64,000 nucleotides of DNA from Ancylomarina salipaludis (GTDB lineage Bacteria; Bacteroidota; Bacteroidia; Bacteroidales; Marinifilaceae): NCBI RefSeq assembly GCF_004122035.1, contig NZ_SAXA01000003.1, positions 62,001-126,000 of the forward strand, given 5' to 3'. Shown here one piece after another: positions 1 through 54,764 of this stretch (positions within the stretch are counted from its first letter, which is position 1; the number at the start of each line of letters is the position of its first letter). The notes beneath the pieces are model-generated. The model made no database searches. It saw only the letters and a program-made list of their open reading frames with translations, and had not been told where the DNA came from. The position numbers were made by a program, and so were the translations under genes.

Positions 1-3000
1 TTACGGATGATGATGAAGCGCCAACTGTTGCTTTTAATGCTACTTCTTCAAATGGTGTAGAATCATTAAGCAGTGCAGATTTACAAGTTGATCTTTCAGC
101 GGTAAGTGGATTGAATGTTTCAGTTGACTATGCAGTAACTGGAACAGCAACTGGCAGTGGAACAGATTATACTTTAGCAAACGGAACGTTAACAATAAGT
201 GCAGGGTCAGCATCAGATAATATCACAATAGCAAGTATTATAAACGATCTTTTAGATGAGAATAACGAAACAGTTATTGTTACATTGTCGAATCCATCAA
301 ATGCAACTTTAGGAACAAACACTGTTCATACCTATACAATTAGTGATGATGATGCAAAACCAACAATAGCCTTTAATTTGACAAGTTCAAATGGTGATGA
401 AACTGTTAGTTCGGCTAATCTGCAAGTTGATTTGTCTGCAGCAAGCGGTAGGGATGTAACAGTTGATTATACAGTAACCGGAACAGCAACAGGAAGTGGT
501 AATGATTATACATTGGCTAATGGAACACTGACTATTACTGCAGGATCTGCTAATGACAATATCACAATAGTAAATATTGTAAATGACTTGTTGGATGAGA
601 ATAACGAAACAGTTATTGTTACATTGTCGAATCCTGTAAATGCAACTTTAGGATCAAATACGGTTCATACTTATACAATTAACGATGATGATGCAACACC
701 AACAATTGCTTTTAATTCGACAAGTTCGAATGGAGCAGAATCAGTAAGTAGTAAAGATTTACAAGTCGATATTTCAGCAGTAAGTGGATTGAATGTTTCA
801 GTTGACTATGCAGTAACCGGAACAGCAACTGGTGGTGGGACTGATTATACTCTTGCAAACGGAACCTTAACGATTGGAGCTGGTAATGCTAGCAATAATA
901 TTACAATCGGAAGTATTGTGGATGATTTGTTGGATGAAAACAATGAGACGGTGATTGTTACCCTTTCAAATCCATCGAATGCCACATTAGGAAGTAATTC
1001 GGTTCATACCTATACGATTACGGATAATGATGCCACGCCAACAGTTGCGTTTAATTCCACTTCATCAAATGGCTTGGAATCGGTAAGTAGCGCAGATTTA
1101 CAAGTTGATCTTTTAGCTGTAAGTGGTTTAACCGTTACTGTAGACTATGAGGTAATCGGTACGGCCAGTGGAAGTGGTACGGATTACACTTTAGCAGATG
1201 GCACCTTAACGATTGCAGCCGGAGGTACAAGTGAAAATATTACAATCGGAAGTATTGTTGATGATCTCTTGGATGAAAATAATGAAACAGTGATTGTAAC
1301 TCTTTCGAACCCAACGAATACTACATTGGGTACAAATACGGTTCATACCTATACGATTACGGATAATGATGCCACGCCAACAGTTGCGTTTAATTCGATT
1401 TCATCAGATGGCTTGGAATCGGTAAGTAGTGCCGATTTGCAAGTCGATTTATCAGCAGCAAGTGGTTTAACCGTTATAGTAGACTATGTGGTCACCGGTA
1501 CGGCCAATGGAGGTGGAACTGACTACACTTTAGCAGATGGCACCTTAACGATCGCTGCAGGAGACGTTAGTGATAATATTACAATCGGAAGTATTGTTGA
1601 TGATCTGTTGGATGAAAATAACGAGACGGTGATTGTTACCCTTTCAAATCCAACGAATGCCACATTAGGGAGCAATACAGTTCATACCTATACGATTATG
1701 GATAATGATGCTACGCCAACAATTGCGTTTAATACTACTTCATCAAATGGCTTGGAATCGGTAAGTAACGCAGATTTACAAGTTGATCTTTCCGCAGCAA
1801 GTGGATTGGTGGTTACAGTTGATTATGTGGTCACAGGAACAGCAATTGGTGCTGACTATACTTTAGAAGATGGCACCTTAACGATCGCAGCCGGAGATGT
1901 CAGTGATAATATTACAATTGGAAGTATTGTTGATGATTTGTTGGACGAAAATAATGAAACAGTGATTGTGACGCTTTCGAATCCCACAAATGCCACATTG
2001 GGAAGCAATACGGTTCATACCTATACGATTACGGATAATGATGCCACGCCAACAGTTGCGTTTACTTCGGTTTCCTCAAATGGTTTGGAATCGATAAGTA
2101 GTGCAGATTTACAGGTTGATCTTTCCGTAGCAAGTGGCTTAACCGTTACCGTAGACTATGAGGTCACAGGAACAGCAACAGGTGCAGATTACACTTTAGT
2201 AGCTGGTACCTTAACGATTTCAGCCGGAGATACCAGCGAGAATATTACGATTTCAGGTATTGTTGATGATCTCTTGGATGAAAATAACGAGACGGTGATT
2301 GTGACTCTTTCGAATCCAATGAATGCCACATTGGGCAGTAATACGGTTCATACCTATACGATTACGGATAATGATGCCACGCCAACTGTTGCGTTTAATT
2401 CTACTTCCTCAAGTGGGTTGGAATCGGTAAGCAGCTCAGATTTACAAGTTGATCTTTCCGCAGCAAGTGGCTTAACTGTTACTGTAGACTATGAGGTCAC
2501 CGGTACGGCCAATGGAGGTGGTACGGACTACACTTTAGCAGATGGTACTTTAACGATCGCAGCCGGAGACGCCAGTGAGAATATTACGATTTCAGGAATC
2601 GTTGATGATTTGTCGATTGAAAATAATGAAACGGTGATTGTGACTCTTTCAAATCCAACGAATGCCACATTGGGTAGTAATATAGTTCATTCTTATACGA
2701 TTACGGATAATGATACTCCACCGGAGATCGCTTTTAATCTGGCTTCTTCAGCTGGATCAGAATCGATTGGTAGTGCAGATTTGCAAGTTGATCTTTCTGT
2801 TGCATTTGGGTTAACTATTACGGTTGATTATACGGTTACGGGCACAGCCAGTGGAAGTGGAGTTGATTATATTTTGACTGATGGGACCTTAACGATCGCA
2901 GCCGGAGACGCCAGTGATAATATTACGATTTCAGGAATTGTTGATGATCTTCTGGATGAAAGTAACGAGACAGTGATTGTGACGCTTTCTAATCCAACAA

Positions 3001-4410
3001 ATGCCACATTAGGAAGTAATACGGTTCATACCTATACGATTATGGATAATGATGCCACGCCAACTGTTGCGTTTAATTCCACTTCTTCAAATGGTTTGGA
3101 ATCGGTAAGCAGCGCAGATTTACAAGTTGATCTTTCCGCAGCAAGTGGCTTAACAGTTACCGTAGACTATGAGGTCACCGGTATGGCTAGTGGAAGTGGT
3201 ACGGATTACACCTTAGCTGATGGGACCTTAACGATCGCAGCTGGAGGTACAAGTGAAAATATCACAATCGGAAGTATTGTTGATGATTTGTTGGATGAAA
3301 ATAATGAAACGGTGATTGTTACCCTTTCAAATCCAACGAATGCGACATTGGGCAGTAATACGGTTCATACCTATACGATTACGGATAATGATGCCACGCC
3401 AACAGTTGCGTTTAATTCCATTTCATCAAATGGCTTGGAATCGGTAAGTAGTGCAGATTTACAGGTTGATCTTTCCGCAGCAAGTGGCTTAACCGTTACT
3501 GTAGACTATGAGCTCACAGGAACAGCAACAGGTGCAGATTACACTTTAGTAGCTGGTACCTTAACGATTTCAGCCGGAGATACCAGCGATAATATTACAA
3601 TCGGAAGTATTGTTGAAGATCTGTTGGATGAAAATAACGAGACGGTGATTGTGACGCTTTCTAATCCAACAAATGCCACATTAGGAAGTAATACGGTTCA
3701 TACCTATACGATTACGGATAATGATGTCATGCCAACTGTTAGGTTTAATTCGATTTCATCAAATGGCTTGGAATCGGTAAGCAGCGCAGATTTACAAGTT
3801 GATCTTTCCGCAGCAAGTGGCTTAACAGTTACAGTTGACTATACAGTAACGGGTACAGCCAGTGGAAGTGGAACGGATTATACTTTGGCAGATGGTACCT
3901 TGACGATTGCAGCCGGAGACGTTAGCGATAATATTACAATCGGAAGTATTGTTGATGATCTGTTGGATGAAAACAATGAAACCGTGATTGTAACTCTTTC
4001 GAATCCAATGAATGCTACATTGGGCACAAATATGGTTCATACCTATACCATTAATGATAATGATTCAGCTCCAAGTATTGCATTTAATACGGTTTCATCA
4101 AATGGTTTGGAATCGGTAAGTAGTGCTGATTTGCAAGTCGATCTTTCTGCAGCAAGTGGTTTGATCGTTACGGTTGATTATGCGGTAACTGGAACAGCGA
4201 CGGGGAGTGGAACTGATTATACTTTGGCAAATGGTACCTTAACCATTGCAGCCGGAGATGCCAGTAATACTATTACAATCTCAAGTATTGTCGATGACTT
4301 GTTGGATGAGAATAATGAAACCGTGATTGTAAGCCTTTCGAATCCTGTGAATGCGATATTGGGCACTAATACGGTTCATACCTATACGATTACGGATAAT
4401 GATGAGACTC
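1..4410 (+). repeat. Tandem DNA repeat array encoding 13 Calx-beta domains
   Basis: A marker in each copy (caagttgat or a close variant) falls at 84, 423, 762, 1101, 1440, 1779, 2112, 2445, 2784, 3123, 3462, 3795 and 4134. The period is therefore exactly 339 bp (113 codons), except for three copies of 333 bp that lack two codons before the ADYTL segment. Copies are very similar at the nucleotide level, including many synonymous sites, in the middle of the array (about 1000-4000). The first three and the ninth are more diverged. Confidence 0.95.
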
Positions 4411-5631: not shown

Positions 5632-7450
<1,819 letters not shown>

Positions 7451-14115: not shown

Positions 14116-14865
14116 ATGGTTACAGAAGAACAAATTACCACATGTAAAGCGCAGGTTGCTGCAATAGCTGATGAAAAAATTTCAGTACCCAACATGCCAT
14201 GCAATGTTTACCTTGCCGAAACTGAAACCCTTGAAACCTGGGCCATGCAGGATAAAGAAAAGCTTTCTACGGCTGGCATTAGCGAAGAACGAATTGCTGA
14301 AATAGCTGTGCGGGCCACAGTCCTTCGGCAATACCAAGCCGATTGGATTATTGTGCGCCGAACCGGCAAGGACGCCGAAAAAGAGTGGAAGGCCTTTGCT
14401 ACGGGCGCTTACGATTTGTGTAGCGAAATGAAACATGCCTTTAAATATGCGTTCAGAAATGAGCCCGAGCTTTTGAGACGTGTGGATGAGATTGCTGAAG
14501 GCACAGGTGATGCTGATATGATTCAGGATTTGAAAACCTATTCGAAATTGGGGCTAAAACATCAGGATTTGCTTACGCCTATTGGTTTTGATATAGCCAA
14601 GTTAGATGCCGCAAGTACAATGTCGGATGAAGGGGCTAATTTGCTGGCTGAAGCCAATGGGAGCAAGTTAAAAGGCAATGTGCAGAAGGTTGCTCGCGAC
14701 AAAGCTTATACTCACCTAAAAGAAGTGGTGGATGAAGTTCGCGCCTGTGGAAAATACCTTTTCTGGAAAGACAAAAAACGTTTGGTCGGCTACGAAAGTT
14801 CTCATTGGAAGAGCCAAAATGCCAGACGCAAGAAAGATGAAATAGAAGAAGTTATCATTGATTAA
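14116..14865 (+). CDS. Conserved-looking protein of unknown function
   Basis: I do not recognise this 249-residue soluble protein. I chose the ATG at 14116 (MVTEEQITTCKAQ) over one 54 bp upstream because the residues before it are unlike a protein start. The sequence is rich in Lys, Glu and Ala and predicted mostly helical. It includes a tryptophan-containing ADWIIVRRTGKDAEKEWKAFATGAYDLC segment and a C-terminal basic tail (KDKKRLVGYESSHWKSQNARRKKDE). No signal peptide, membrane helix or catalytic motif is seen. Its GC content is higher than that of the surrounding gaps, as expected for a real gene. A terminator follows directly, and then the CATG array. Confidence 0.7.
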   Translation: MVTEEQITTCKAQVAAIADEKISVPNMPCNVYLAETETLETWAMQDKEKLSTAGISEERIAEIAVRATVLRQYQADWIIVRRTGKDAEKEWKAFATGAYDLCSEMKHAFKYAFRNEPELLRRVDEIAEGTGDADMIQDLKTYSKLGLKHQDLLTPIGFDIAKLDAASTMSDEGANLLAEANGSKLKGNVQKVARDKAYTHLKEVVDEVRACGKYLFWKDKKRLVGYESSHWKSQNARRKKDEIEEVIID

Positions 14866-14884
14866 TACAAAGCTAAATAAAAAG

Positions 14885-14909
14885 AACTCTGCGTAAGCGG
14901 AGTTTTTTT
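14885..14909 (+). terminator. Intrinsic terminator after the unknown gene
   Basis: aactctgc pairs with gcggagtt (one G-T) around a gtaa loop and is followed by seven T. Confidence 0.85.
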
Positions 14910-15161
14910 ATGTCTTAAATAAAGGACTCATGTTCTATAATTTATCGTCATGTTGGTTTTTACGCTTTCATGTTGCTAATTCTTCGGTCATGTTTGTCTT
15001 TGCCTCTCCATGCTATTTATTTAGTGCTCATGTTCAACATGGAGGCCTAAAACTTAACATGGCAGCTTATTTTACGACATGAGCACATAAAACATGACAT
15101 GGCAAGTCGCTTGTTAACATGACAGCCTTAAAGTTAACATGGGAGCTTTTGTGTTGACATG
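14909..15161. repeat. Mirror-symmetric array of CATG sites on a 20-bp grid
   Basis: CATG begins at 14929, 14949, 14969, 14989, 15009 and 15029, then at 15038, 15058, 15078, 15098, 15118, 15138 and 15158. That is two runs with exact 20-bp spacing, joined by one 9-bp step. A degenerate TATG at 14909 fits the left grid, making 7 + 7. Left sites mostly read CATGTT; right sites read (A/G)ACATG. The two halves are therefore inverted about 15035, inside catgttcaacatg. The 16 nt between sites vary, with a weak right-half consensus of acatggcagcctt. One extra CATG occurs at 15093. Since 20 is not a multiple of three and no frame is open, this is not coding. Function unknown. Confidence 0.9.
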
Positions 15162-15282
15162 GGGATGAGTAACTGAACTTTTGGGCTAAGTGATGTACAA
15201 GGATTCTATTTCTGAAATCAATTGTTGATTGCGTTAAGTATTAATTGTCTGGCAGTTATCGATTTTGTAACTTATTGGGACT

Positions 15283-15714
15283 TTGCATGGTAATATTAGG
15301 AATGGGCTGATGCAATTGTCCGAAATAGGCAAATTGGCTGAAATATATTGGCATGAAATCCCATTGCGTTTTCCATTTGCAGCCATAGATGAATTTGTTG
15401 TGATGCCCGATCATATTCATGGTATTATCATTATTAATAAGCAGGATGATAATGGATCGTGTTCTGATAGAGACGCGATTAATCGCGTCTGTACGGATGT
15501 AGGAGGCGTTACAGGCGTTAAAAATCCGATGTTATCGGATAATTTATCGAGAATCGTTAGATGGTATAAAGGTCGTGTATCGTTTGAATCGAGAAAAATC
15601 CATGCCGATTTCATGTGGCATTCCCGATTTTATGATCATATCATTCGAAATGATGAAGCCCTGCAAAGAATCAGAAATTATGTTAAAAATAATCCATCGA
15701 AATGGGCCAGATAG
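15283..15714 (+). pseudogene. Truncated REP-associated tyrosine transposase (RAYT, IS200-like)
   Basis: The 143-residue frame matches the Y1 transposase family from the EIGKLAEIYWHEIP segment onward. It includes the HUH motif in MPDHIHGIIII (about 46-56) and the C-terminal HSRFYDHIIRNDEALQRIRNYVKNNP with the candidate catalytic tyrosine. The usual N-terminal strand of about 35 residues (the YFVT region) is missing, and the apparent start MHGNIRN is not family-like. A REP palindrome lies inside the frame and encodes an inserted DRDAINRVCTD stretch. I take it to be inactive. RAYTs process and mobilise REP hairpins in trans. Confidence 0.8.
15471..15490. repeat. REP palindrome, copy 1 (inside the transposase frame)
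   Basis: agacgcgattaatcgcgtct is a perfect 20-bp palindrome. Confidence 0.85.
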
Positions 15715-15734
15715 AGACGCGATTAATCGCGTCT
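15715..15734. repeat. REP palindrome, copy 2
   Basis: Identical 20-bp palindrome to copy 1, starting directly after the transposase stop codon. Confidence 0.85.
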
Positions 15735-15743
15735 GTACAGATC

Positions 15744-15855
15744 ATTTATCGAGAATCATCAGATGGTATAAAGGTTGTGTATCATTCGAAATGGTGAAGC
15801 CCTGCAAAAAATCAGAAATTATATTGAAAATAATCCATCTAAATGGGCCAGATAG
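15744..15855 (+). pseudogene. Decayed duplicate of the transposase 3' end
   Basis: This segment repeats the transposase from ttatcgagaatc to gggccagatag with several substitutions. The middle part encoding RKIHADFMWHSRFYD is deleted. It is followed by a degenerate REP, so the unit [3' end + REP] has been tandemly duplicated and then eroded. Confidence 0.8.
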
Positions 15856-15875
15856 AGATGCAATTAATCGTGTCT
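15856..15875. repeat. REP palindrome, copy 3 (degenerate)
   Basis: agatgcaattaatcgtgtct differs from copies 1 and 2 at three positions, which breaks perfect symmetry. Confidence 0.7.
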
Positions 15876-15891
15876 GTTGTGAATGATATAT

Positions 15892-54271: not shown

Positions 54272-54356
54272 CGGAGAGAGAGGGATTCGAACCCCCGGTA
54301 CGTTGCCGCACAATGGTTTTCAAGACCACCGCATTCGACCACTCTGCCATCTCTCC
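54272..54356 (-). tRNA. tRNA-Ser (anticodon TGA)
   Basis: An 85-nt cloverleaf. The acceptor stem is ggagaga/tctctcc with discriminator G, the anticodon loop reads cttgaaa with TGA, there is a long variable arm typical of Ser, and the T-loop is ggttcgaatcc. CCA is not encoded. Confidence 0.95.
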
Positions 54357-54363
54357 TGAATTG

Positions 54364-54436
54364 AGCGGGAAACGAGACTCAAACTCGCGACCCTCAGCTT
54401 GGAAGGCTGATGCTCTATCAACTGAGCTATTCCCGC
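54364..54436 (-). tRNA. tRNA-Gly (anticodon TCC), copy 1
   Basis: A 73-nt cloverleaf with acceptor gcgggaa/ttcccgc, D-arm tagctcagttgatagagca, anticodon stem tcagc/gctga with loop cttccaa (TCC) and T-arm gagtttgagtctc. Identical to copy 2. Confidence 0.95.
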
Positions 54437-54449
54437 AGGAAAATAATAG

Positions 54450-54531
54450 TGGGGAGAGCAGGATTCGAACCTACGAAGACGAAGTCAGCGGAGTTACAGT
54501 CCGCCCCAGTTGGCCACTTTGGTATCTCCCC
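54450..54531 (-). tRNA. tRNA-Tyr (anticodon GTA), copy 1
   Basis: An 82-nt tRNA with acceptor ggggaga/tctcccc, discriminator A, anticodon loop ctgtaac (GTA) in stem gcgga/tccgc and a long variable arm. Confidence 0.95.
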
Positions 54532-54552
54532 AATATATTTACAATAAAATTG

Positions 54553-54625
54553 AGCGGGAAACGAGACTCAAACTCGCGACCCTCAGCTTGGAAGGCTGAT
54601 GCTCTATCAACTGAGCTATTCCCGC
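54553..54625 (-). tRNA. tRNA-Gly (anticodon TCC), copy 2
   Basis: Same 73-nt sequence as copy 1, part of a duplicated Tyr-Gly unit. Confidence 0.95.
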
Positions 54626-54682
54626 AGATCTTTAGCAATTTATCGATCGTTATCGAATAAATTTGTTTGCTTCAGAATATGG

Positions 54683-54764
54683 TGGGAAGAGCAGGATTCG
54701 AACCTACGAAGACGAAGTCAGCGGAGTTACAGTCCGCCCCAGTTGGCCACTTTGGTATCTTCCC
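54683..54764 (-). tRNA. tRNA-Tyr (anticodon GTA), copy 2
   Basis: Differs from copy 1 in the fourth acceptor pair: ggga.../...tccc has an A-T pair where copy 1 has G-C, and both strands have changed together. The body is otherwise the same. It is the first tRNA of the cluster in the direction of transcription. Confidence 0.95.

Follow-up and report, generated by a model that had tools for sequence, protein, structure and literature searches.

Thirteen CATG sites occupy an exact 20-bp grid between positions 14929 and 15161 of the 64-kb stretch of Ancylomarina salipaludis DNA analyzed here (the window), and the question raised is whether this intergenic array is the remnant of an ordinary repeat or a site where something reads the spacing. 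Six sites form a left run (14929, 14949, 14969, 14989, 15009, and 15029) and seven a right run (15038, 15058, 15078, 15098, 15118, 15138, and 15158); the opposed runs are joined by a single 9-bp step, and the one CATG off the grid is at 15093. A sequence-only reading of this DNA had described two runs of CATG exactly 20 bp apart, a single 9-bp step between them, and a degenerate TATG at 14909, and the site positions and the scans described below agree with all three. It had also read the right run as AACATG or GACATG, which are present at four and three of the seven sites, respectively, and the left run as CATGTT, which is found at five of six sites, the exception being CATGCT at 15009. The mirror symmetry it had proposed is only partial: the runs do face a common center, but the arms are not equivalent. 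In the left arm, the middles of the five inner units are T-rich and that of the outermost is A-rich, whereas right-arm middles are A-rich and T-rich in turn going outward, with a neutral fifth unit. The features of the locus are collected in Table 1; the outer border of the right arm probably lies near its listed end, and the hairpin and T-run are likely the terminator of the upstream gene (14119-14865) and thus a border outside the array.

Table 1. Features at and beside the array, in window coordinates
Feature	Position	Strand	Description
Hairpin and T-run	14879..14908	+	Immediately 5' of the array; conserved in the sister-species genome G002
Left arm	14909..15028	+	Six units of 20 bp outward from the dyad; the outermost starts at TATG 14909
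Dyad CATGTTCAACATG, 9-bp step	15029..15041	.	Central C sets the polarity
Right arm	15042..15177	-	20-bp units, orientation opposite to the left arm; last CATG at 15158-15161
REP-associated tyrosine transposase (RAYT) gene remnant	15283..15714	+	NCBIfam 51 bits, below the cut-off of 80

Scanning all 256 tetramers at periods of 8-60 for chains of five or more members yielded four in the window, CATG twice together with the overlapping ACAT and ATGT, and this array is the source of them all; the longest CATG chain at 20 bp in 60 dinucleotide-preserving shuffles had three members. Tandem Repeats Finder gave no row at the array at a score of 30, so the units of the array have diverged beyond what an ordinary tandem repeat would show. 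Interiors average an identity of 0.41 in one arm and 0.45 in the other, in line with the earlier claim that the 16 nucleotides between sites vary too much to be a duplicated repeat. A 20-bp tandem minisatellite, which the array resembles in its period, was therefore rejected as a description: the interiors have diverged and CATG has been held.

Comparison with relatives allowed the pattern to be followed across the genus and family. The A. salipaludis genome is designated G000, the other genus members G001-G004, and Labilibaculum sp. OB13, whose genus NCBI places in the Marinifilaceae, G069. The pattern of four sites was found in 4 of 58 genomes, every one of them among the five members of the genus, and the reversed control gave none; G001, the fifth member, has a degenerate piece of a left arm. 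Absence from all sister genomes, which the sequence-only reading had named as grounds for abandoning its view, is thus not what was found. Nor do chance arrays abound elsewhere in the same genome, its other stated ground: four-site matches in G000 outside the window array all belong to one second array, with none in the reversed control. That second array, on contig C1, has 5 + 5 exact sites around the same center, CATGTTCAACATG, with the same 9-bp step, and lies between convergent genes read by eye as lpdA and 5-formyltetrahydrofolate cyclo-ligase. The window array has an orthologue, flanked in the same way, in the sister species G002, where the dyad is CATGTTCAACATA; the C1, G004, and G069 arrays contain the 13-bp dyad of the window itself, on either strand.

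Three loci are therefore distinguished. The window array is found in G000 and G002 and the C1 array in G000 only, and a further array lies upstream of queE (named by eye) in G003 and G004, with the remnant in G001 at the same locus and, beyond the genus, a copy in G069; the queE array is thus common to the genus and to Labilibaculum sp. OB13. A profile was trained on 28 three-unit stretches (from five family loci, with orthologues counted apart, and two loci of a Prolixibacteraceae MAG) and at E 0.01 it matched 8 of 56 family genomes, six of them strongly; five of these six had given training sequence, and G001 is the independent find. The two weak matches, G026 and G073, were not arrays on reading. 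Clear arrays are present in 6 of 56 family genomes, one of them as a remnant, so the arrays are dispensable; queE itself was detected in 25 of the 56. The simplest account would be an old queE array that was lost several times, with copies at two further loci. Note that the dyad alone is no marker: 11 of 56 family genomes contain CATGTTSAACATG, at 15 places in all, compared with 9 of 56 for its reversed control, and a 20-bp chain of three or more accompanies it at only four of the 15 places (two in G000, one each in G004 and G069). A given locus may carry an array in one relative and lack it in another, and the C1 array region, ~637 bp long in G000, corresponds to ~92 bp in G002; no clean empty site was found, the G002/C1 borders being too diverged to show insertion or target duplication. 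At the queE locus of G003 (L007, 1200-1490), the place expected for the left part of the array is occupied by tandem repeats whose unit spans several tens of bases, with the breakpoint inside a unit. In Labilibaculum sp. OB13 (locus L024), a frame read by eye as AbiH-like (1791-1995) starts ~100 bp past the queE array.

The pattern of change between orthologues is not even along the units. In the stretches that aligned in register, to which the count was confined, 4 of 104 CATG bases differed compared with 59 of 304 interior bases (Fisher 5.8e-5); one segment, the right side of L024/L006, ran contrary, with 3 of 12 CATG bases changed versus 2 of 32 in the interior. Forty-four units from six loci, chosen for an intact CATG at both ends and turned to one orientation (some are mutually orthologous, hence non-independent), gave the consensus YCATGTYR followed by an A/T tract at positions 10-12. 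In this profile, T at position 5 was found in 43 units, Y at 6 in 42, R at 7 in 41, and Y at 20 in all 44; positions 10-12 were A or T in 42-43 units, in either strand sense (A 15-20, T 23-27), and position 16 was S in 36. Because the units share a consensus, more than spacing and CATG is maintained. The earlier statement that only these two are held therefore stands as to the greater conservation of CATG over the interiors and falls short as to the loose consensus and A/T tract. Across the counted Bacteroidota stretches, which omit the degenerate outer parts of L006 and L007, 58 of 75 steps are 20 bp, six are 21 bp, and four are the 9-bp dyad step; the remainder comprise one of 29 and two of 40 bp at decayed sites, and steps of 5, 6, 14, and 15 bp from two stray CATGs.

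The two arms also differ in a consistent manner. When arrays are oriented by the C of CATGTTCAACATG, all 16 of the left-arm units counted are T-rich, and right arms at three loci go A, T, A, T outward, with 13 of 15 possible sign changes (permutation p 0.004, in a test devised after the pattern had been noticed). The test omitted outermost units that are not flanked by CATG at both ends (on the left, window units 6 and 7, both A-rich, C1 unit 7, and L024 unit 6, slightly A-rich; on the right, window unit 7, C1 unit 5, and L024 unit 9), and L008, L006, and L007 were excluded as orthologues. Left arms of different arrays were more alike in register than out of register in all six pairs, of which one is orthologous and one was ahead by just 0.02; for right arms of different arrays, likeness in register did not clearly exceed that between units of equal parity. 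A T-rich left arm and a right arm of alternating polarity make the array a directional object with a defined center, and three loci have this dyad, step, and A/T polarity in common.

In a scan of species genomes that reached beyond the family, at least 119 stretches with five CATG at 20 bp were found. Among the matches listed, 103 of 119 have units at least 70% alike and are ordinary minisatellites, and seven are two-armed pairs of exact chains, six from Microbacterium sp. HD4P20 and one from the Labilibaculum contig. The former group lends weight to a decayed, functionless origin for the arrays themselves, by tandem and inverted duplication of a 20-bp minisatellite in which CATG was kept by chance or by a local mutational or gene-conversion process; the presence or absence of arrays at one locus in relatives suits the same account. 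This is nevertheless unlikely, because within Bacteroidota arms the grid is nearly complete although interior identity is only 38-60%, orthologues have kept CATG, and one combination of dyad, step, and polarity is seen at three loci.

HD4P20, a member of another phylum, carries two-armed arrays as well, most of them with the 9-bp step. Its genome contains 109 four-site windows and shows the two-armed 9-bp pattern at eight places, where one strand or both match exactly (reversed control, 0); the center step of the six pairs is 9 bp in four, 8 in one, and 32 in one. Of 136 steps in Microbacterium arrays, 112 are 20 bp, eight are 21, nine are 9, and seven are others. HD4P20 units approximate CATGTSGGTTTCTCGCCGAS, with flanks that differ from those of the Bacteroidota units; common descent is thus not demonstrated by the likeness, and convergence is as likely. 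Units within an HD4P20 arm are often nearly identical and resemble recent unit duplications, a further point for the minisatellite account, so those arrays could be convergent tandem repeats. The base before CATG (G or C) is mostly uniform within an arm and opposite between the arms in nine of 12 HD4P20 arrays (L224-L231, L235, L238, L069, and L104), as though the arrays avoided perfect palindromes or marked one strand off from the other; of the other three, one has the same base and two are ties. M. kyungheense has 11 four-site windows, and five of six stretches read there turn around at a center, as judged by eye, with centers of varying length and decayed CATG. In the Prolixibacteraceae MAG, one array has 13 sites in a single arm; another, mostly of GCCGTCATGTTG-like units, runs into CATGTTCAACAGG, which is the Bacteroidota center with one change. 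The two-armed 9-bp pattern with at most one mismatch was found in neither of these two genomes nor in Lentibacillus.

Wider sampling indicates that such arrays are rare and patchy. Exact two-armed matches were found in one of 249 genomes sampled from the family of HD4P20, namely HD4P20 (the reversed control matched one other genome), and across the 393 genomes sampled from the order of Ancylomarina, the pattern with one mismatch matched G000 alone. A profile search of the order (R1, E 0.001) matched three of 393 genomes including G000, and is weak as a negative because it scored 13 candidates per genome under strict filters; the other two matches were not arrays on reading, one being a CATG and a GATG 20 bp apart. 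Viral contigs yielded 28 stretches in which five CATG follow each other at 20 bp, none of them a two-armed pair, and the Bacteroidota dyad pattern was found in no viral stretch; two viral contigs that matched a short two-armed pattern had one 20-bp step per side and no longer arms. By blastn, the window array matched nothing in 72,556 plasmids, the L024 array nothing in 50,697 phages, and one HD4P20 array nothing in either collection; in these collections, the arrays tried thus show no relation to a plasmid iteron or phage site. Other CATG arrays were seen in passing. Two in Rossellomorea (L099, 2300-2520, and L112, 4240-4440) are one-armed at 20 bp with an ATCATGC core, have strongly diverged interiors (identity 0.42 and 0.45), and share a nearby flank motif between two species; five in Bacteroidales (L047, L113, L123, L143, and L051) have a period of 10 rather than 20 bp and units like CATGATGNAA.

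Since the arms are inverted in orientation, they could act after transcription or as single strands, pairing into a long imperfect hairpin in the manner of a REP/BIME, a terminator, an mRNA 3' stabilizer, or a single-stranded DNA substrate. The RNA folds are indeed more stable than those of shuffled sequences (z -4.12 and -4.36, with 0 of 200 shuffles as good in each case), and, although the repeated self-complementary cores may explain part of this, the stable folds remain a count against binding by a protein that reads double-stranded DNA. The DNA fold is less marked (z -1.80, 7 of 200 shuffles as good), and facing units pair no better than others in three of four arrays: mean paired positions of 16, facing versus other, were 7.7/8.7 in the window, 7.8/8.1 in C1, 7.4/8.3 in L008, and 8.4/7.6 in L024, in a test that ignored the 21-bp steps of the last two. 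The opposed G and C before CATG in HD4P20 would be mismatched in a hairpin, and the array contains no match to an Rfam family at gathering score; relaxing the threshold to E 5 gave ten matches, all below gathering, the best for the array stretch being potC at 21 of 44 bits. We consider the hairpin a poor candidate overall.

The 20/21-bp phase, the polarity relative to a fixed center, the asymmetric conserved site, and the free middle fit a protein that reads double-stranded DNA. From the grid, dyad, polarity, conservation of CATG over the interiors, and recurrence, all of which are observed, we infer that a protein binds and does so cooperatively, starting at the dyad; the array is probably, if not by a wide measure, an intergenic nucleoprotein platform, that is, a phased protein-binding array centered on the dyad. 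Each 20- or 21-bp unit would be one putative binding site for a sequence-specific protein, which would read the asymmetric YCATGTYR once per two helical turns, always from the same face, and put up with considerable variation in the A/T-rich middle. At the dyad, two protomers in opposite orientation would meet 9 bp apart, and from there a phased filament or wrapped complex would grow outward over the two arms. Counting against such a platform, besides the stable RNA folds, are the dispensability of the arrays, the contrary L024/L006 segment, the lack of a two-armed 9-bp match in M. kyungheense, the Prolixibacteraceae MAG, and Lentibacillus, and the frequent near-identity of HD4P20 units within an arm. 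The sequence-only reading had suggested a cooperative dimer or a filament nucleated at the dyad: the phased steps (64 of 75 in Bacteroidota and 120 of 136 in Microbacterium are 20 or 21 bp) and the conservation of CATG favor this, while the symmetry is only partial and the binding itself is deduced from the DNA. Its idea that units of about two helical turns place self-complementary CATGs on the same face is likewise half sustained, as the steps suit phased binding but the core that is held is the asymmetric YCATGTYR and not CATG alone.

The most likely use of such a platform would be local chromosome architecture or insulation at gene borders, because arrays sit between genes of differing relative orientation. 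Flanking genes are convergent at C1, codirectional at the G002 orthologue, and divergent at the G069 queE locus (by eye), and their orientation is mixed in Microbacterium (from a crude choice of ORFs); this mixture speaks against a promoter or terminator role. Intrinsic curvature was considered and set aside, as it is not raised: just one of five stretches leans curved, the end-to-end/contour percentiles (low values are curved) being 99, 51, and 94 for window stretches and 89 and 15 for the C1 arms. More tentatively, and with the balance of probability against it, the arrays may constitute an undescribed class of chromosomal site, a directional, dyad-nucleated, two-armed 20-bp CATG array at which a DNA-binding system of Bacteroidota and Actinomycetota assembles, like a centromere or boundary element. 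If a protein does assemble on them, the arrays would be naturally occurring places, encoded in the sequence, where a bacterial nucleoprotein filament nucleates, and their strict geometry and direction could be read from the DNA; the same geometry in two phyla would be a transferred or repeatedly invented solution. The array DNA would itself be ready bait for catching its protein, and the arrays suggest selection on a 4-bp core and its spacing that an ordinary repeat finder missed here.

SeqA reads clusters of GATC, also palindromic tetranucleotides, as a group along the helix; we know of no fixed 20-bp grid, dyad, or arm polarity in those clusters. By analogy, CATG might be the target of an adenine methyltransferase and the array might be bound in a methylation-dependent manner. 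A self-complementary tetranucleotide kept among varying interiors would suit this, as would the scarcity of CATG in the window (183 versus a mean of 264.8 in shuffles), but conservation reaches beyond CATG to YCATGTYR, and we regard methylation-dependent reading as improbable.

Regular short repeats with variable interiors also recall a guide or memory array of the CRISPR or TIGR kind, in which CATG would be a minimal repeat and the 16 nucleotides between sites the spacers; the right-arm alternation, which doubles the period to 40 bp, is of some help to this idea. Even so, it is very improbable. The interiors follow a common consensus, partly in register between loci, the arms are opposed, and no defense model matched the two neighbors tested. 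A CRISPR array, with long near-identical direct repeats and unrelated spacers, is rejected on the 4-bp invariant core as well, only four to six bases per unit being fixed, and a TIGR array on its repeat structure: TIGR arrays combine two alternating repeats of 8-12 nt with 9-nt spacers (PMC12045711), and the CATG array has about five near-invariant bases per 20 bp.

The array works like a multi-site array of the parC or iteron type, and it is a member of no kind tested. The nearest printed geometry we encountered is that of parC (ParMRC, pSK41 type): ParR of pSK41 binds 20-bp repeats and, on parC, seeds a solenoid-shaped segrosome, the repeats being direct, plasmid-borne, and usually upstream of parM (PMC9426499). 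CATG arms, in contrast, are opposed around a dyad, the genes around the arrays are of chromosomal type, and some species have several arrays in one genome; no par gene was found among the neighbors scanned, and the array is set apart from parC on these counts. REP/BIME elements share an intergenic location, inverted units, and, in the window, a RAYT remnant ~120 bp away. REPs are palindromes tagged GTAG or CGTC (PMC3733652), whereas the 44-unit profile shows no palindrome beyond CATG and no conserved tag. Assignment to a RAYT/REP element was rejected, as the G002 orthologue has no RAYT ORF beside it in a 3,064-bp locus; RAYT therefore arrived after the array or was lost in G002. The literature searched, which mostly excluded subscription journals, contains no named element with this geometry, as the sequence-only reading had supposed.

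No gene was seen to travel together with the array, and no Nop-domain protein was detected among four neighbors scanned (Pfam, E 0.1). The upstream gene has no Pfam family and a weak NCBIfam match to the PQLLE family (28 bits versus a cut-off of 80), and on the other side, beyond the RAYT remnant, is rnfA, the last gene of an apparent Rnf operon of which rnfA alone was tested. The truncated RAYT gene is followed by a second partial copy (15283-15886 overall), with AGACGCGATTAATCGCGTCT-type palindromes inside and behind. Farther away, thirteen 339-bp tandem repeats (1-4404; Tandem Repeats Finder score 4142) reach the window edge and are possibly part of a large repetitive protein gene, a perfect 8-bp repeat (CAGTCTAA x4) adjoins a degenerate 7-bp repeat at 7383-7447, and five successive tRNA genes, identified with Rfam, lie on the minus strand at 54272-54764.
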